NCBI GenBank assembly: GCA_947624325.1
Contig: CANQJT010000002.1
Coordinates: 186,001 to 250,000, forward strand
Source of the DNA: Candidatus Gastranaerophilales bacterium
GTDB taxonomy: Bacteria; Cyanobacteriota; Vampirovibrionia; Gastranaerophilales; Gastranaerophilaceae
Reading direction: 5' to 3'
Length of the DNA stretch: 64,000 bases
The notes beneath the pieces are model-generated. The model did no database searches. It was not told where the DNA came from and saw nothing but the letters and a program-made list of their open reading frames with translations. This document shows positions 31,123-38,290 of the stretch, piece after piece; position 1 is the first letter of the stretch; every line of letters begins with the position of its first letter. Position numbers and translations under genes: made by a program.

Positions 31123-31199
<77 letters not shown>

Positions 31200-31602
31200 T
31201 TATTAAATTTTCATATGAAGCAAATACGCTTCACTCTTAAATTATTAAACGCTAAAACTAAAAAATCAACCCTTATAAAATGTCTGTAATTTCAAAATCT
31301 TCCCTACAATTATTGTAGGGATAAATGTAGTCATGGCGGATAACGAAATTAAAGATATAAAATCGGGGATAAAAACTAAAAAATATAATAATTAGTCGAG
31401 GTAGTAAAACATTTTATTTAATTTATTAGTAATTAAATATATTATAAATACCAATAACACTTATTATACCTATCAAAGAACATTATCTAAAATGAGTTTT
31501 ATGAGCCGACGAGCTACCATTCATATAAATGTATTATAAAATTGGCAAATTTCAATTTTTTATATTATAGTGTTATAGTTAGGGTTATATTATAGTTTAG
31601 AT
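31200..31602. other. Gene-free stretch: tRNA promoter copy and remnant unit
   Basis: On the minus strand GTTGATT...TAATAAT at 31241-31270 is the tRNA promoter (TTGATT, 16 bp, TAATAA); a near-copy lies at 38346-38375. CCCTACAATTATTGTAGGG at 31304-31322 is a perfect palindrome with related sequence near the right end of the element (37958-37984). From 31442 on the left direct repeat begins. No convincing gene is seen. Confidence 0.6.
31442..31519. repeat. Left direct repeat with tRNA(fMet) fragment (attL-like)
   Basis: Matches 38007-38084 nearly base for base, including TACCAATAACACTTATTATA and AAAATGAGTTTTATGAGC. The tRNA part (31499-31519) lacks one C of the GCCC run and stops matching after GCTACCA. 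Confidence 0.8.
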
Positions 31603-32502
31603 ATGTTATATTACCGCGAAAAGATTATATTATCATTGATTGAAGAATTTAAAAATTCTTTGGGAAGAACACAGTTGCAGAAGTTCTTATTTTTGTTTAC
31701 AAGAATGCAACAAGAACCTTCATATGACTTTATTCCATATAATTTTGGTTGTTTTTCTTTTCAAGCAAATAAAGACCTTGAACATTTGCAAAAAGATAAA
31801 CTAATTGTTGATAAAGGGTGCTGGCAATTAACATCTTCAAATAAAATATATAAAGATTTACTTAACAATGAAGATAAAAAAATATTATTTAAAATCAAAA
31901 AAGATTATGAAAATATAAGTACAAATAGCCTTGTAAAAAAAGTTTATTTAGAATACCCCTATTATACAATATATAGCACTATTAAAGATGAAATTCTCTC
32001 AAAATCAGAACAAGAAAGTATAAATAAAATTATCGAAAGAGATTATAACCTGAATGAAACATCTACGGTTTTGTTTACAATCGGTTATGAAGGTATTTCT
32101 TTTGAAACATATATAAATAAATTAATTGAGAATAATATTAGAGTATTAATAGATGTCAGGAGAAATCCTTTTAGCCATAAATATGGGTTTTCAAAAAATA
32201 CGTTATCATCGGTTGTAACAAAAATAGGTATTGTATATGTTCATTTACCCGAATTAGGTATCATATCTGAAAAAAGACAAAAACTTGAAACATTAAATGA
32301 TTACAAATCTTTATTTGATGAATATGAAAAAACATTACCAAATAAGCATGCCGAATTGCAAAAAATTCTTGGATATTTAAATAAATATGGGCGTGTTGCT
32401 TTGACATGTTTTGAAAAAAATGTTGAAATGTGCCATAGGACAAGAATTAAAGAATACATTTTAAAGAATTTACAAACTGACCTAAATGTTATAGAGTTGT
32501 AA
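31603..32502 (+). CDS. DUF488-family protein with N-terminal winged-helix-like domain
   Basis: 299 residues. Residues 1-120 start YYREKIILSLIEEFKNSLGR and include FIPYNFGCFSFQANKDLE, a domain I associate with SocA/Panacea-like or winged-helix regulators, low certainty. Residues 157-299 are DUF488: FTIGYEGISFETYINKL, a VRRNPFSHKYGFSK basic patch, and LTCFEKNVEMCHR near the end with Cys/His residues. DUF488 proteins have no settled function. The next gene begins 1 bp after the stop, so the two form an operon. First cargo gene of the tRNA-inserted element. Confidence 0.7.
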   Translation: MLYYREKIILSLIEEFKNSLGRTQLQKFLFLFTRMQQEPSYDFIPYNFGCFSFQANKDLEHLQKDKLIVDKGCWQLTSSNKIYKDLLNNEDKKILFKIKKDYENISTNSLVKKVYLEYPYYTIYSTIKDEILSKSEQESINKIIERDYNLNETSTVLFTIGYEGISFETYINKLIENNIRVLIDVRRNPFSHKYGFSKNTLSSVVTKIGIVYVHLPELGIISEKRQKLETLNDYKSLFDEYEKTLPNKHAELQKILGYLNKYGRVALTCFEKNVEMCHRTRIKEYILKNLQTDLNVIEL

Positions 32503-32503
32503 T

Positions 32504-33340
32504 ATGGCTAAAACAAAAGTTTTTATTACAGTTAAAACATATCCTAATATTTCATCAAAATATGATGAGTTAGTTTGTACTGCTGGTTTTAAAGAAGATG
32601 GTTCAATGATAAGGATATATCCTATTCCTTTTAGAAAATTAGATTATAATAAGCAATATGTAAAATATCAGTGGATTGAACTTGATTTAATTAAGAATGA
32701 AAGTGATTTTAGACCAGAAAGTTATACTATGCCAAACAGATTATTCCAAGATATAACTACATTAGATAAAATCAGTACGGATAATAATTGGCAAAAAAGA
32801 AAAGAAATTGTTTTTAAGAATGGTTATTATGACGATATGAAGTTATTGTTATCAGAGGCAAAAGACTCATCTAATAGAAAATCACTTGCATTATTTAAAC
32901 CTCATAAGATATTAGGATTAGTTATTCAAAAGGATAAAAAAGGATACAATGCTAAAAAAGTAGAAAAAATATTAAATAAGCGTGCTCAACTTTCATTATT
33001 TGAACAAAATAACGATAACAGAGATGATATTTTTGAAATTGTTAAGAAATTACCATATAAATTTAGATATAAATTTCAAGATAAAAATGGTAAAGTGTCA
33101 ACCTTAATGATAGAAGATTGGGAAATAGGGCAACTATACTGGAATTGTTTAGATAAGTACGGTAGCGAAGAAACTGCTATACAGAAAGTAAAAGAACAAT
33201 ATGAAGAAAACTTTCTAAAGAATAAAGACATATATTTCTTTTTGGGAACTACAAAAAGATGGCATAATATTTCTCCAAATCCATTTCTTATAATTGGCGT
33301 TTTTTATCCTAAGTTTGAAGCACAAACAAAACTATTTTAA
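32504..33340 (+). CDS. Unknown partner of the DUF488 protein
   Basis: 278 residues, no recognised fold. It starts KTKVFITVKTYPNISSKYDE followed by ELVCTAGFKEDGSMIRIYPI, and contains a conserved-looking DKNGKVSTLMIEDWEIGQLY segment and a C-terminal FLGTTKRWHNISPNPFLIIG. Soluble, Lys-rich, no signal peptide. Its translation should be coupled to the DUF488 gene (TAATATG junction). The pair is likely to be one functional unit; the role, perhaps defence or nucleic-acid related, is inference from the setting only. Confidence 0.6.
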   Translation: MAKTKVFITVKTYPNISSKYDELVCTAGFKEDGSMIRIYPIPFRKLDYNKQYVKYQWIELDLIKNESDFRPESYTMPNRLFQDITTLDKISTDNNWQKRKEIVFKNGYYDDMKLLLSEAKDSSNRKSLALFKPHKILGLVIQKDKKGYNAKKVEKILNKRAQLSLFEQNNDNRDDIFEIVKKLPYKFRYKFQDKNGKVSTLMIEDWEIGQLYWNCLDKYGSEETAIQKVKEQYEENFLKNKDIYFFLGTTKRWHNISPNPFLIIGVFYPKFEAQTKLF

Positions 33341-33509
33341 CCACCCCATATAGCCCCTCTCGTTGTGTTTTGTGGTTTCGTGGTGGCAGATACAAGTTTT
33401 CGGTTGTAGAATTTTTCTCAGGCTAAAACACCCGCCCAAAATTTTAAGAATGAGAGCATTCTCTGGCTGATGACGAATAGTTTTATAACTATGAGGTATG
33501 AAAGTACCT

Positions 33510-33839
33510 CTATTTAATCTCTTTTATTGTTTTAATAATTTTTAGGTATGCTTCAATTTCGCTATCATTAGCAAGATAAATTTCTTTTATAAGTTCATCG
33601 CGAGTTTTATTTTTAGTTTCTTTTGTTAATACCCCAAATTCAGATAATGAAACATTTAGAGCATCAAGCATTTTTAGAAAACTATTTAAAGCAGGAATTT
33701 GTAAACCACGCTCAATGTTGCTTAAATTTTTTTCGGTCATACCTATTTTTTCAGATAATTCAGCTTGTGATAGCTTTGCATTTATCCGTAATTGTTTAAT
33801 TTTTTTACCTAAAAATTCTTTGTCGTCATAAAGAAACAT
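33510..33839 (-). CDS. XRE-family HTH regulator
   Basis: 109 residues on the opposite strand to its neighbours. Residues 10-65 form the Cro/CI helix-turn-helix: IKQLRINAKLSQAELSEKIG followed by MTEKNLSNIERGLQIPAL. The C-terminal part is a short helical region. It lies between the two cargo pairs and is divergent from the glycosylase gene, so it may repress one or both. Confidence 0.85.
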   Translation of the reverse strand: MFLYDDKEFLGKKIKQLRINAKLSQAELSEKIGMTEKNLSNIERGLQIPALNSFLKMLDALNVSLSEFGVLTKETKNKTRDELIKEIYLANDSEIEAYLKIIKTIKEIK

Positions 33840-34028
33840 AGTTATTATTCCTTATTACTTATTCAAAAATACCGTACAAATAATAACTAAATAACCTTAT
33901 GGTTTATGAGTTTTAGCATTAATAGAAATCTATAATACTAAGTTAAGTTCTTTTGTGATAATATAACCATATCAATAATACTTAACTTAAAAAAGTATTA
34001 TTTATGGCAATTAAAACTGGTTTGTAGT

Positions 34029-34817
34029 ATGGAAGATTTAGCTCAAAAATCTGAAACTGATTATATAAAAATGTTCAATATTCTTGATAATTACCTAAGC
34101 AATAAGGTAGAAGATATTGATATTACTATTTTACAATCTTTTGAAGATAGAAAGAACGGTAAAATATTTTCATTTAGTGAACATTTAAAAGGCTTTATAT
34201 ATGCACAATTAAGTGCATTGGTATCTTGGAAAAAAATTAAAAGCAATTTATCAAATATTGATAATATTCTTTGCCAATTTGATAAGGACAAATTAAAACT
34301 AAAATCAGCAGATAATTTAATTGCTGAAATTACGCAAATCAAATGCAATAACCCATATACGACAAAAAATCAAATGCGGTCATTGAAAACGAATATTGAA
34401 ACATTTGAGCAAATCGAAAAAGATTTTGGCAGTCTTGACAAATTTATAACACATCATTCGCCTGTAAACATTATCAAATTACTTGCCGATAGCGATAGTA
34501 CCTATAAATTAAAGTATTCAGGTGTAGCACTTGTTTGTGAATACTTGCGAAATATGGGTATAGATGTTGTCAAACCTGATGTCCATATCAAACGAATACT
34601 TGCTCCTGATAGGTTAAATTTAGTTTCATCTAAGTCTGATTATGCAGTTATAGAAAGGTGCGCTCAATTATCCAAACTTATCGGTATAAGTCAAATTAAG
34701 ATAGATTTTTTATTATGGAATTATTGTGCCAAAGGATATGGCGAAATATGTACAAAAAAGCCAAAGTGCGAAATGTGTGTAATTAAAAAATTCTGTAAAG
34801 GAAAGGGAAATATATGA
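34029..34817 (+). CDS. HhH-GPD (endonuclease III-like) DNA glycosylase
   Basis: 262 residues. The C-terminus has four cysteines spaced C-x5-C-x2-C-x5-C (ICTKKPKCEMCVIKKFC), nearly the 4Fe-4S loop of endonuclease III/MutY (C-x6-C-x2-C-x5-C). VKPDVHIKRILAPDRL near residue 178 gives the catalytic aspartate of the family. The helix-hairpin-helix segment before it is unusual (LKYSGVALVCEYL) and the classic GxGxKT lysine is not at its normal place, so mono- or bifunctional chemistry is unclear. Overlaps the next gene (ATGA). Either base-excision repair or removal of modified bases from invading DNA. Confidence 0.65.
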   Translation: MEDLAQKSETDYIKMFNILDNYLSNKVEDIDITILQSFEDRKNGKIFSFSEHLKGFIYAQLSALVSWKKIKSNLSNIDNILCQFDKDKLKLKSADNLIAEITQIKCNNPYTTKNQMRSLKTNIETFEQIEKDFGSLDKFITHHSPVNIIKLLADSDSTYKLKYSGVALVCEYLRNMGIDVVKPDVHIKRILAPDRLNLVSSKSDYAVIERCAQLSKLIGISQIKIDFLLWNYCAKGYGEICTKKPKCEMCVIKKFCKGKGNI

Positions 34818-35089
34818 ACATTAAAGAAGAAATTGAACAATTTTTATCATCAATGCCATTGAATCACGAATTTTCAACAAAATGGTTTAAAACTGAATTG
34901 AGCAAACAATTTAATCGGTCGCAAGATTGTTATATTCCCTCTGATTATTGCTACGACAGAACTAATAAAGGCATAAATCACGAAAAACAACCTCATTATT
35001 TTTTATATATAAGTCGCGGAAAATACCGATATGTAGGTAAAAGTTATCAATATAAAGGCAATATTGAACAAAATCCAAGAAATAAATAA
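34814..35089 (+). CDS. Small protein coupled to the glycosylase
   Basis: 91 residues; its ATG overlaps the glycosylase stop by 4 bp. Contains IPSDYCYDRTNKGI near residue 38 and a closing strand GKYRYVGKSYQYKG. I have the impression of a small domain that also occurs attached to restriction-type nucleases, but cannot name it with certainty. Likely part of one unit with the glycosylase. Confidence 0.6.
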   Translation: MNIKEEIEQFLSSMPLNHEFSTKWFKTELSKQFNRSQDCYIPSDYCYDRTNKGINHEKQPHYFLYISRGKYRYVGKSYQYKGNIEQNPRNK

Positions 35090-35138
35090 TAGTAATGATT
35101 TATTGTTATTCAATAACTAATATAAAAAGGGTTTGCAA

Positions 35139-35321
35139 ATGTGGCTGATAAAAACGGTATGGAATATTCTTATATTTTTAATTATAGCTTTTATATTTAG
35201 TTTTGAACCATTTAATTTTGATAAAATTATAGATATAACTATAAAAATTGTACTTGTATTTTTATTTGTAATCGTTATTGGTTTAGAAATAAAGGATTGG
35301 AAAAGCCGTAATAAAAAATAA
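35139..35321 (+). CDS. Small two-helix membrane protein
   Basis: 60 residues from ATG 35139 with AAAGGG upstream. Two hydrophobic helices (about 3-19 and 30-48) joined by a short EPFNFDK loop and followed by a basic tail KDWKSRNKK. Unknown function; could be a toxin-like or accessory membrane peptide of the element. Confidence 0.45.
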   Translation: MWLIKTVWNILIFLIIAFIFSFEPFNFDKIIDITIKIVLVFLFVIVIGLEIKDWKSRNKK

Positions 35322-35763
35322 TTTTTGACCGGTGGGAAAATGAAAAATAAAAAGAAGATACTATATAAAATATCCTTATATAGCATTATAGTAAATATGC
35401 AAGTTAAAAACTTGTTCATGAATATATTGAAATGTCTTCATTTACGGTTTTTTGTATATTAAATATCCTTATTTTAATTAGCGAGAAAAGTAGATATCTT
35501 CTTAGAGACAAATAAAACTTATTAATATAACTTCATATTTTAGCCATAATACTGGCATTTTCTTGACTACCTATAAAAAAATTTATATTATAAAAGTATA
35601 AATTGAATAGGTAGTGACGAATCACCTTTATCTCTCGTCCCCAGCGTGAGCTTCCGCTATTGGTACAAATAATTTAAGCTCAAACAGTAGGACATTTTAA
35701 ATTTTAAGGAGAAAATCGCACCAAATAAACAACAAGTTATTACATAATTTAGGAGAACTAATT
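35322..35763. other. Mostly gene-free stretch within the element
   Basis: A 40-codon frame at 35340-35462 starts ATGAAAAATAAAAAG directly after GGTGGGAAA; its ribosome-site spacing is poor and I rate it below one in four. AAGGAG near 35706 precedes no ATG. Nothing else convincing. Confidence 0.3.
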
Positions 35764-35931
35764 ATGAAGAAACGTGTTGTTTCAAACTTCGCTGGCAGTA
35801 TAATCAGCAAAAAGGCAAATCGTATAAGACCGGTGTATCTTATTCGCAAGCCAAAATTATCAGCATACACGAAAAGAAAGGGGATTTGCTACAACAGAAA
35901 ATTTTCTGATATTCGCACTAATTTAATCAAA

Positions 35932-35951
35932 CTTGATAAAGTTTTATCAAG
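35932..35951. promoter_or_regulatory. 20-bp palindrome upstream of the recombinase
   Basis: CTTGATAAA-GT-TTTATCAAG: two perfect 9-bp arms, in the position expected for an operator or a recombination half-site of the serine recombinase. Confidence 0.4.
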
Positions 35952-36096
35952 TGATAGGTTATACTCTATTCACGCTATTTTATGGCACAAAAAAAGCCTT
36001 TGTTTAGGGTTGGTTTTTGTATTTTCACTCAACTTTGCGATAAAGTCTTTACTTCTTCCAATCGTTGTCCTACAAAAAAATAAAAAGGGGGAAACG

Positions 36097-36672
36097 ATGA
36101 CAGGACAAAGAATTGCGTACATTAGAGTCAGTACAACCGACCAAAATACTGAAAGTCAAAAAGAGTTATTAAAATCTTACAATATTGACAAGTATTTTGA
36201 AGAAAAGGTAAGCGGTAAAAATGCTTCAGATAGATTAGAACTGCAAAATATGCTTGTTTATGTTCGTGAAGGCGATACTATTTATGTAAAAGACTTATCA
36301 AGACTTGCTCGTAATACAAAAGACTTGCTTGAAATTGTTGAAAAACTTAACAATAAAGGTGTTTCATTATTTAGTATCAAGGAAAGCATTGATACATCTA
36401 CAAATATGGGTAAGCTTATGCTTACATTTCTTGGTGCAATTTATGAATTTGAAAGAGTAAATCTTTTAGAGCGCCAAAAAGACGGAATAGCGGTTGCTAA
36501 AATGAAAGGTAAATACAAAGGTCGCAAAAAAGTACCCAAGCCTGATAATTTTGAAGAGATTTATCGCAAATGGCGTAATCGTGAAATTTCATCTATTGGG
36601 GCTATTCGTACATTAGGCATTAGCGAATACGCATTCTACAAATTCGTAAGAGAGGAGAATGCAAATGGCTAA
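36097..36672 (+). CDS. Serine recombinase, resolvase/invertase family
   Basis: 191 residues from ATG 36097, which has AAGGGGG upstream. AYIRVSTTDQ holds the catalytic serine; VKDLSRLARN and FEERNLLERQ-like YEFERVNLLERQKDG complete the catalytic domain, and a short helix-turn-helix closes the protein. Length is that of Hin/Tn3-type enzymes. The frame stays open another 111 codons upstream to an ATG at 35764 that has its own AGGAG site; that extension is basic with one hydrophobic stretch and may be an alternative N-terminus. Overlaps the integrase gene by 8 bp. Confidence 0.85.
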   Translation: MTGQRIAYIRVSTTDQNTESQKELLKSYNIDKYFEEKVSGKNASDRLELQNMLVYVREGDTIYVKDLSRLARNTKDLLEIVEKLNNKGVSLFSIKESIDTSTNMGKLMLTFLGAIYEFERVNLLERQKDGIAVAKMKGKYKGRKKVPKPDNFEEIYRKWRNREISSIGAIRTLGISEYAFYKFVREENANG

Positions 36673-37927
36673 ACGAAGAAGAAATGGCGAGGGTTGTTTC
36701 AGTAAAAATGGTAACGGCTATGATTATCGCATACCTTATACAGATAATAGCGGAAATACAAAATATAAATATTTTTGGGCAAAGACAAAAGAAGAATGTA
36801 TTGAAAAAGCTACGAATTGGCGAAATGAACAAAACGGAATTTATACAAAAGACGCAAATTCAAACTGGACAGTAGAACAATGGGCAAATTATTGGTTCGA
36901 TAATTATGTTGTCGGAAAGGTAAAAATAACAACCCAAAATGATGATAGAAGTATTTTAGACCACCATATCATAAACGGTATAGGACAATATCGGCTTAAA
37001 AATATTACAGGACAGACAATGCAGAGGTTTTATAATGCTTGTGCCGATAAAAGAAATGTTAGAGGGGATAAATTAAGTCCTAAAACAATAAAAAATATTT
37101 ATACCGTTGCAAATAGAATGTTCAAATGTGCATACAATAACGATTTAATTACTTTTAATCCAAATAAAAAAGTTGAATTGCCAAAACGAGAAAAGAAATT
37201 TGCAAATACTTTAACGGCAGAAGATGCACAACGACTTGCACAATCTTGTATGAAAAGCGGTACAACAATGGATTATTTAATTATATTTTTATTATGTACG
37301 GGTGCAAGATTAGGCGAAGCTCTTGGATTACAATGGAGTAAAGTAAATTTCTTTAAAAAGGAAATTAGAATAGACCAACAAGCACAAGCTATTCCTAATG
37401 ATGATAAAAATTCTAAACACAAATACAAATTAAAAATAATTAAATCTACAAAAACAAGATATTCAAACCGCACTTTGCCAATATTACCTGCATTATCAGC
37501 TATGCTATATAAAATTAAGCAAGAGCAAATTGAAAATATTTCAGTCAAAGGCAACAATTATCATCTGGATTTAGACCTTGTATTTGCCAAAGATGACGGC
37601 TATTTTATTTGTGATACTGTTTTGAGAAAATATTTAAACACAAAGTTAGAAGAACTTAATATTGAACATTTTAGAATACACGATTTGCGACATTCATACG
37701 CAACTCGTTTATTTGAAAGCGGACAATATGAGCCAAAAACAGTTTCGCAAATATTAGGACATAGCAGTATTGGTATAACATTAGACACTTATACTCATGT
37801 TATGCCGACAAAATTAAGGAAAGAAATAAATAAATCAGCTTTTATTTTCAAAAAGTATTTTAATAATATAGAAGTACATATTCCTTCCGAAATGTTTCCT
37901 AAAAAATCTGATGAAAAAAAGGCTTAA
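36665..37927 (+). CDS. Tyrosine recombinase (phage-type integrase)
   Basis: 420 residues from the second ATG (36665), 7 nt after AGGAG; the first ATG at 36659 sits too close to that site. N-terminal arm-binding region, a core-binding domain, then the catalytic set R (TGARLGEALGL), K in KSTKTRYSNRTLP, HxxR (HDLRHSYATRLF), H (LGHSS) and Y (TLDTYTHVM). Its 3' end is 80 bp from the right direct repeat, as usual for an integrase next to its attachment site. It should drive insertion into tRNA(fMet). Confidence 0.93.
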   Translation: MAKRRRNGEGCFSKNGNGYDYRIPYTDNSGNTKYKYFWAKTKEECIEKATNWRNEQNGIYTKDANSNWTVEQWANYWFDNYVVGKVKITTQNDDRSILDHHIINGIGQYRLKNITGQTMQRFYNACADKRNVRGDKLSPKTIKNIYTVANRMFKCAYNNDLITFNPNKKVELPKREKKFANTLTAEDAQRLAQSCMKSGTTMDYLIIFLLCTGARLGEALGLQWSKVNFFKKEIRIDQQAQAIPNDDKNSKHKYKLKIIKSTKTRYSNRTLPILPALSAMLYKIKQEQIENISVKGNNYHLDLDLVFAKDDGYFICDTVLRKYLNTKLEELNIEHFRIHDLRHSYATRLFESGQYEPKTVSQILGHSSIGITLDTYTHVMPTKLRKEINKSAFIFKKYFNNIEVHIPSEMFPKKSDEKKA

Positions 37928-38006
37928 TCAATTAAAACTTGTGGGGAAAAAAGACCTATAATTATTGTAGGTCATCCCTACAATTTTCATTAAAAAACAA
38001 AGTATT

Positions 38007-38290
<284 letters not shown>

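Follow-up and report, generated by a model that had tools for sequence, protein, structure and literature searches.

A tRNA-Met integrative element of Gastranaerophilales with a slot of mostly defence-like cargo and a putative DNA glycosylase module

Introduction

What two tightly packed gene pairs do on a mobile element is the question raised by a 64,000-nucleotide stretch of contig CANQJT010000002.1 (hereafter the window), which belongs to the 1.98-Mb genome of a Candidatus Gastranaerophilales bacterium. One pair encodes a DUF488 protein and a 278-aa partner, the other an endonuclease III-like DNA glycosylase and a 91-aa partner, and a gene for an XRE-type regulator lies between them. The original prediction, made from the sequence of this region (31603-35089), regarded both pairs as equal cargo of an integrative element, suggested a role in defence or in maintenance of the element, and put forward the removal of modified bases from phage DNA by the glycosylase as one idea. 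Relatives with the same genes were found in genomes named Candidatus Gastranaerophilales or Melainabacteria (their loci are cited below by L numbers). On balance, we lean towards the view that the element is a carrier of anti-phage genes, and that the enzyme of one of its two slots (slot B) attacks DNA, in this case by base excision.

Limits and structure of the element

The noted region, with all its genes, proved to be part of a larger, 6.9-kb integrative element located at about 31161-38102. Both ends of the element are perfect 39-bp repeats (31161-31199 and 38064-38102) that correspond to the 5' half of a tRNA-Met gene, a pattern for which no matches are expected in shuffled sequence. The integration target, tRNA-Met(CAU), is located at 31123-31199 on the minus strand (ARAGORN, Rfam RF00005) and includes the left copy of this attachment (att) core. 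Besides the noted genes, the repeats enclose a serine recombinase gene of the resolvase/invertase type (35764-36672, plus strand; PF00239, E-value (E) 6e-41), whose conserved part begins at an internal ATG at 36098, and a tyrosine integrase gene (36659-37927, plus strand; PF00589, E 9e-24; PHROG integrase, E 6e-71). Ten sister elements of 6.7-8.2 kb were revealed in other Gastranaerophilales, in the same tRNA gene and with the same pair of repeats. In several congeneric genomes an intact tRNA-Met gene lies beside minE and carries no element; this empty-site argument applies to the minE side, the left neighbours of the tRNA gene being variable between species. Integrase, att repeats and empty site are all present, and 31161-38102 is an integrative element that inserts into tRNA-Met and has defined ends and two slots.

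The elements share a common order. The tRNA is followed by a conserved left end of about 360 bp, which terminates in an inner repeat, and by slot A. After a non-coding segment, also conserved, come a divergent XRE gene and slot B; the serine recombinase gene and then the integrase gene lead to the right end. The DUF488 pair occupies slot A in the window, and the glycosylase is found in slot B. Thus, the original prediction was right about the recombinase-bearing element and placed all five genes correctly, including the 1-bp spacer within the DUF488 pair and the 4-bp overlap between the glycosylase gene and the gene that follows it. It failed in treating the two pairs as equal cargo: of the two, only the glycosylase is associated with the integrase, and its slot, behind the XRE gene, belongs to the backbone.

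The slot B module

The putative effector of slot B is a DNA glycosylase of 262 aa (34029-34817, plus strand). Its AlphaFold2 model (predicted local distance difference test score, pLDDT, 90) has the HhH-GPD/endonuclease III fold. In structural comparisons the model matched the endonuclease III (EndoIII)-DNA complex 1orp with a Z-score (Z) of 16.7, the highest obtained (203 residues, root-mean-square deviation 3.1), and the 8-oxoguanine (8-oxoG) glycosylase Tm1821 with Z 15.4; in total, 147 chains reached Z >= 8, and the 50 entries listed are HhH-GPD-type glycosylases or their homologues. A profile of the family retrieved archaeal 8-oxoG glycosylase/lyase (hmmsearch, E 1e-4). The Pfam model of HhH-GPD (PF00730) gave no match to the protein at E <= 1, and the sole PF00730 match in the same genome is the host EndoIII. 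Since the host encodes its own EndoIII, we rejected the possibility that the protein is an Nth orthologue; the predicted likeness to endonuclease III therefore holds for the fold but not for orthology.

Two groups of residues are strictly conserved. Asp184, which hhalign aligned with Asp141 of the host EndoIII, is invariant in 21 of 21 relatives, as is Lys182 located two residues before it. Four cysteines (Cys241, Cys247, Cys250 and Cys256) form an iron-sulphur (Fe-S) motif, C-x5-C-x2-C-x5-C, that is invariant in 12 family proteins and gives a weak match to PF10576. The position of the lyase lysine is taken by a non-lysine residue in the profile alignment to archaeal Ogg; the hhalign alignment to the host EndoIII missed the hairpin. 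Since the aspartate is kept and the lyase lysine is replaced, the established enzymology of HhH-GPD proteins predicts a monofunctional glycosylase devoid of lyase activity. Hence the protein shares with endonuclease III, MutY and archaeal Ogg the fold, the catalytic aspartate and the four Fe-S cysteines, but differs from them in the missing lyase lysine, the degenerate hairpin, the lack of a Pfam HhH-GPD match and its location on an element together with DUF7225. Element genes are conserved and under purifying selection, with ratios of nonsynonymous to synonymous substitution rates of 0.04-0.20 where these could be computed (0.14-0.20 for the glycosylase).

Published glycosylases of phage defence, Brig1 and Brig3 (PMC11078745, PMC13160076), are members of the uracil-DNA glycosylase superfamily. 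They resemble the protein from the window in the proposed monofunctional excision of bases from invader DNA and, in some cases, in an operon partner. The protein from the window has the HhH-GPD fold, and a Brig-type enzyme was rejected on this ground. Base-excision restriction coupled to a methyltransferase was rejected as well, there being no methyltransferase in the element.

The glycosylase is flanked by two small proteins. The XRE-type regulator (33510-33839, minus strand; HTH_3, E 4e-14) is encoded divergently from it; several XRE types occur across the sister elements, and the intergenic region is conserved within each type. On the other side lies the gene of a 91-aa DUF7225 protein (34814-35089, plus strand; PF23870, E 2e-20). 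Sequence searches of solved structures gave no usable match for the fold of DUF7225, nor for that of DUF488.

Strong glycosylase scores were obtained in 14 of the 386 genomes of the phylum analyzed, and all the proteins belong to one family. The integrase was found at E <= 1e-60 in 13 genomes, 11 of which also contain the glycosylase (Fisher p 5e-17, the related genomes not being independent). One of the two integrase-only cases (L138) is cut by a contig end, and the other (G138/L137) holds a complete element. There the gene order is unchanged, and what lies behind the XRE gene, ahead of DUF7225, is the gene of a 220-aa protein that has a PD-(D/E)XK-like motif, ID...IELK, and matches NERD at a borderline E of 2.5e-4. 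This swap means that one and the same position, with its regulator side and partner, takes either a glycosylase or a PD-(D/E)XK/NERD-like nuclease. The association with DUF7225 is itself variable: the two proteins are fused in L032, and another domain replaces DUF7225 in L034 and L035. Of the gene coupling originally proposed, the DUF488 pair remains, being nearly always adjacent, but the glycosylase-DUF7225 pair is loose.

Distant glycosylase relatives with a KPDVHIKRI motif are encoded in four Treponema loci. Two of these genes lie in operons with genes for ZorA- and ZorB-like proteins, a vWA protein, a phosphatase and a kinase (the vWA protein and phosphatase were named by eye), and one of the two operons also encodes a Shedu SduA protein. 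In these Zorya-like operons (L057, 1657-9476; L059, 3-8291; the phosphatase is of the PP2C type) the glycosylase relative replaces the usual effector. A further relative with 25% identity was found on a Cupriavidus plasmid near translesion-synthesis genes. No match to the glycosylase was revealed in GenBank phages, and neither the glycosylase nor DUF7225 was matched in IMG/VR. Nothing on DUF7225 or on phage defence by HhH-GPD proteins was found in the open-access literature, most subscription papers being outside the scope of this search.

Slot A and the PDC-M19 gene pair

Both proteins of the DUF488 pair match over their full length, side by side, the models of PDC-M19, a phage defence candidate catalogued in PADLOC (PDC entries are candidates). 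PDC-M19A (31603-32502, plus strand; 299 aa) matches PDLC04505 at E 1e-107 to 8e-107 over residues 2-297, and PDC-M19B (32504-33340, plus strand; 278 aa) matches PDLC04508 at E 1e-115 to 9e-115. The DUF488 domain of M19A, expected from the original prediction, was confirmed (PF04343, E 2e-25, residues 168-286) and contains invariant DVR, CxE and CHR motifs; Asp184, Cys269 and His278 of M19A are among its conserved residues. The winged-helix-like front of the protein is weakly supported: residues 6-114 resemble the C-terminal region of the DarG antitoxin at E 0.003-0.007 (PDB 7yk3, E 0.13). The AlphaFold2 model of M19B (pLDDT 88) consists of tandem OB folds, and OB-fold binders of single- or double-stranded nucleic acids top both structural lists (RPA, Teb1, POT1, HIN-200 and hSSB1; Z <= 7.4). 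M19B may thus be a tandem OB-fold nucleic-acid binder, which we regard as a lead only; this model is an addition to the catalogued PDC-M19.

In total, the M19 pair was found in 15 of the 386 genomes, in 23 plasmids and in 11 viral contigs. Almost all loci read have the two genes side by side, and in some of them the pair is flanked by phage structural genes. Several Cyanobacteria have a short DUF488 protein devoid of the front domain, with the gene order reversed and the pair placed among chromosomal genes. A core-genome setting, which would speak against a defence role, was therefore not observed for the Gastranaerophilales and viral loci but does occur in several Cyanobacteria. No paper or anti-phage test concerning PDC-M19 was found within the same literature scope.

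The content of slot A differs between the sister elements. We revealed a CAP12-type TIR protein (L020), an AIPR/AbiU protein (L029), an HNH effector-like protein (L023), a PD-Lambda-2-like set (L030), an OLD/AriA-like (Gabija-like) ATPase (L047) and an Mrr endonuclease, PDC-S02 (L049, E 3e-80). Partial elements contain a KAP ATPase of PDC-S20 (L031) and a HEPN AbiU2 protein (L024), and the slot A genes of L021 and L034 gave no match; the PADLOC scan of slot contents covered the elements other than L045 and L137. As a control, 10 neighbouring host genes gave no comparably strong defence matches, the best being that of a MinD-type ATPase (E 3e-9). The cargo of slot A is thus swappable and mostly defence-like, and these contents strongly suggest a defence slot. 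The catalogued PDC-M19, the known defence genes in the same slot and the occurrence on plasmids and phage contigs likewise argue for the predicted defence role of the DUF488 pair.

It should be mentioned that several of the slot contents belong to no known family. A gene pair without matches (244 and 175 aa) recurs in slot A of L034 (6048-7311) and L049 (5033-6295), and no family match was obtained for a 687-aa protein in L021 or for a 461-aa protein found in several elements.

In its organization the element is similar to P4-like satellites (PMC9122126), which are small integrative elements whose conserved parts flank a single short defence slot of high turnover; it differs from them in its site, the 5' half of a tRNA gene. 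No phage-hijacking, capsid-size or replication genes were found among the PHROG and Pfam matches of the seven main genes, the small open reading frames not being resolved.

Possible functions of the element

We regard slot B as a putative XRE-controlled defence module that attacks DNA, on the grounds of the exchange between glycosylase and nuclease, the presence of the XRE gene and the gene neighbourhood of the Treponema relatives. In the mechanism that we envisage, the XRE protein would hold the module low until it is needed; the glycosylase would flip a base out of the DNA, probably a modified one or one otherwise foreign to the host, and hydrolyse it by means of Asp184 and without lyase activity, and the resulting abasic sites would block the invader. 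DUF7225 might help to bind or select DNA. That the base removed is a modified phage base, as the original prediction had it, is a hypothesis. In slot A, the RPA/HIN-like tandem-OB protein M19B might bind foreign or single-stranded DNA and trigger or direct the DUF488 enzyme.

Several observations weigh against this view. In the defence catalogue the glycosylase matches only weakly and in part (E 4e-7) the 'OGG' of PADLOC, the ancillary glycosylase of CBASS type IV; both are HhH-GPD-type glycosylases in a defence setting, but the element has no CD-NTase, QueC or TGT genes. DUF7225 is missing beside the glycosylase in several elements and is present without it in other loci, and two elements have a damaged glycosylase gene (a truncated open reading frame in L028, an internal deletion in L049). 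In the Treponema relatives the similarity is mostly confined to about 74 residues and the Fe-S cysteines are missing, and only two of the four have Zorya-like neighbours. Finally, the OB-fold matches of M19B have middling Z and possibly reflect only a common arrangement.

The same arrangement of genes could also serve the element itself. If the glycosylase were the toxin of an addiction module, repressed by XRE and derepressed upon loss of the element, base excision in the host chromosome would kill cured cells, and defence would be confined to slot A. A divergent XRE gene beside a DNA-attacking enzyme, the similarity of XRE to HipB/Y4mF-type antitoxins by hidden Markov model, and the fixed enzyme slot that swaps with a nuclease are all consistent with this. 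We consider it rather unlikely. One and the same glycosylase is found with XRE proteins of several types, which points to an exchange of regulators more than to an antitoxin that co-evolved with it; moreover, relatives are encoded in Zorya-like operons, and the broken copies in L028 and L049 persist. Control of the life cycle by a repressor and an excision or establishment gene is a different possibility, suggested by the conserved position beside the recombinases and by the fact that XRE repressors often control integrative elements. It appears very improbable: a DNA glycosylase is not known to take part in excision by tyrosine recombinases, a nuclease unrelated to the effector can take its place, and some elements have a broken glycosylase gene or none.

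An ordinary accessory gene of DNA repair, aiding the host or shielding element DNA from damage, would agree with the nearest folds, those of EndoIII, MutY and 8-oxoG glycosylases. This explanation is in our opinion unlikely, because the host already has its own EndoIII, the distribution of the gene is patchy and bound to the element, a NERD-like nuclease takes its place in one element, and the lyase lysine is missing. Thus, anti-phage defence with a DNA-attacking enzyme in slot B is the reading that we prefer.

A broader proposal can be made only tentatively, and we hold it to be possible rather than probable: compact tRNA-Met elements of an uncultured gut lineage would carry an exchangeable immune module of XRE, a DNA-attacking enzyme (a lysine-less HhH-GPD glycosylase or a nuclease) and DUF7225, with the first HhH-GPD glycosylase to defend alone against phages, and their second slot would be a natural collection of defence genes. 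A defence glycosylase of the HhH-GPD type would be new, whereas the PDC-M19 pair is already catalogued. If the proposal is true, two unrelated enzyme folds would have given rise to base excision as a defence strategy, and the exchange of glycosylase and nuclease behind a like regulator and before DUF7225 would point to the latter as a shared targeting part. The region from tRNA-Met to the XRE gene provides a well-delimited anchor in the search for further defence genes of this lineage, which has no cultured models.

Conserved non-coding regions and related elements

The left end contains a copy of the region upstream of the tRNA gene (31200-31300, minus strand), which resembles the flank of the empty sites L101/L108 and the left ends of the sister elements; in the latter it includes a promoter-like pair, TTGATT..CATAAT. 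This is of note because insertion parts the 5' half of the tRNA gene from its promoter; judging from its sequence, the copy probably acts as a promoter that keeps the tRNA gene transcribed, or has it transcribed again, once the element is inserted.

The left border of the cargo slot is an inner att-like repeat (31431-31519), a copy of the right-end arm with a degenerate tRNA core. It is kept in all 10 elements aligned, which rules out a mere remnant in this genome, and its core has a one-base deletion in nine of the 10, as if frozen. Given its likeness to 37995-38085, it could be the trace of a former tandem element that became fixed within the present one. In L023 and L045 an extra gene is located between the left end and the inner repeat.

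The non-coding segment that separates the XRE gene from the cargo (33337-33505) has 73-85% identity to those of the sister elements despite differing cargo. As a candidate structured RNA it was negative in Rfam, and the covariation term was near zero. It is kept in all elements; a terminator and a recombination or transfer site are ideas for its role.

The right end (37995-38102) consists of the arm and the 39-bp att core. The left and right cores are identical in 10 of 11 elements, host-peculiar base differences included, and in L021 and L023 the stretch duplicated at the two ends takes in the upstream promoter region. Such a picture is unusual for a simple exchange between attB and attP, and gene conversion may be considered. 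Directly at the right core, two tandem 98-bp copies with 98% identity (38095-38290) start within the 5' end of the tRNA.

Besides the elements described above, a second type was found near or in the same tRNA-Met gene (L030, 14093-19118; L156, 1058-6082; L158). It has a different integrase, three extra small genes and XRE-DUF7225 without the glycosylase, and in two cases it encodes a PDZ-domain protein.

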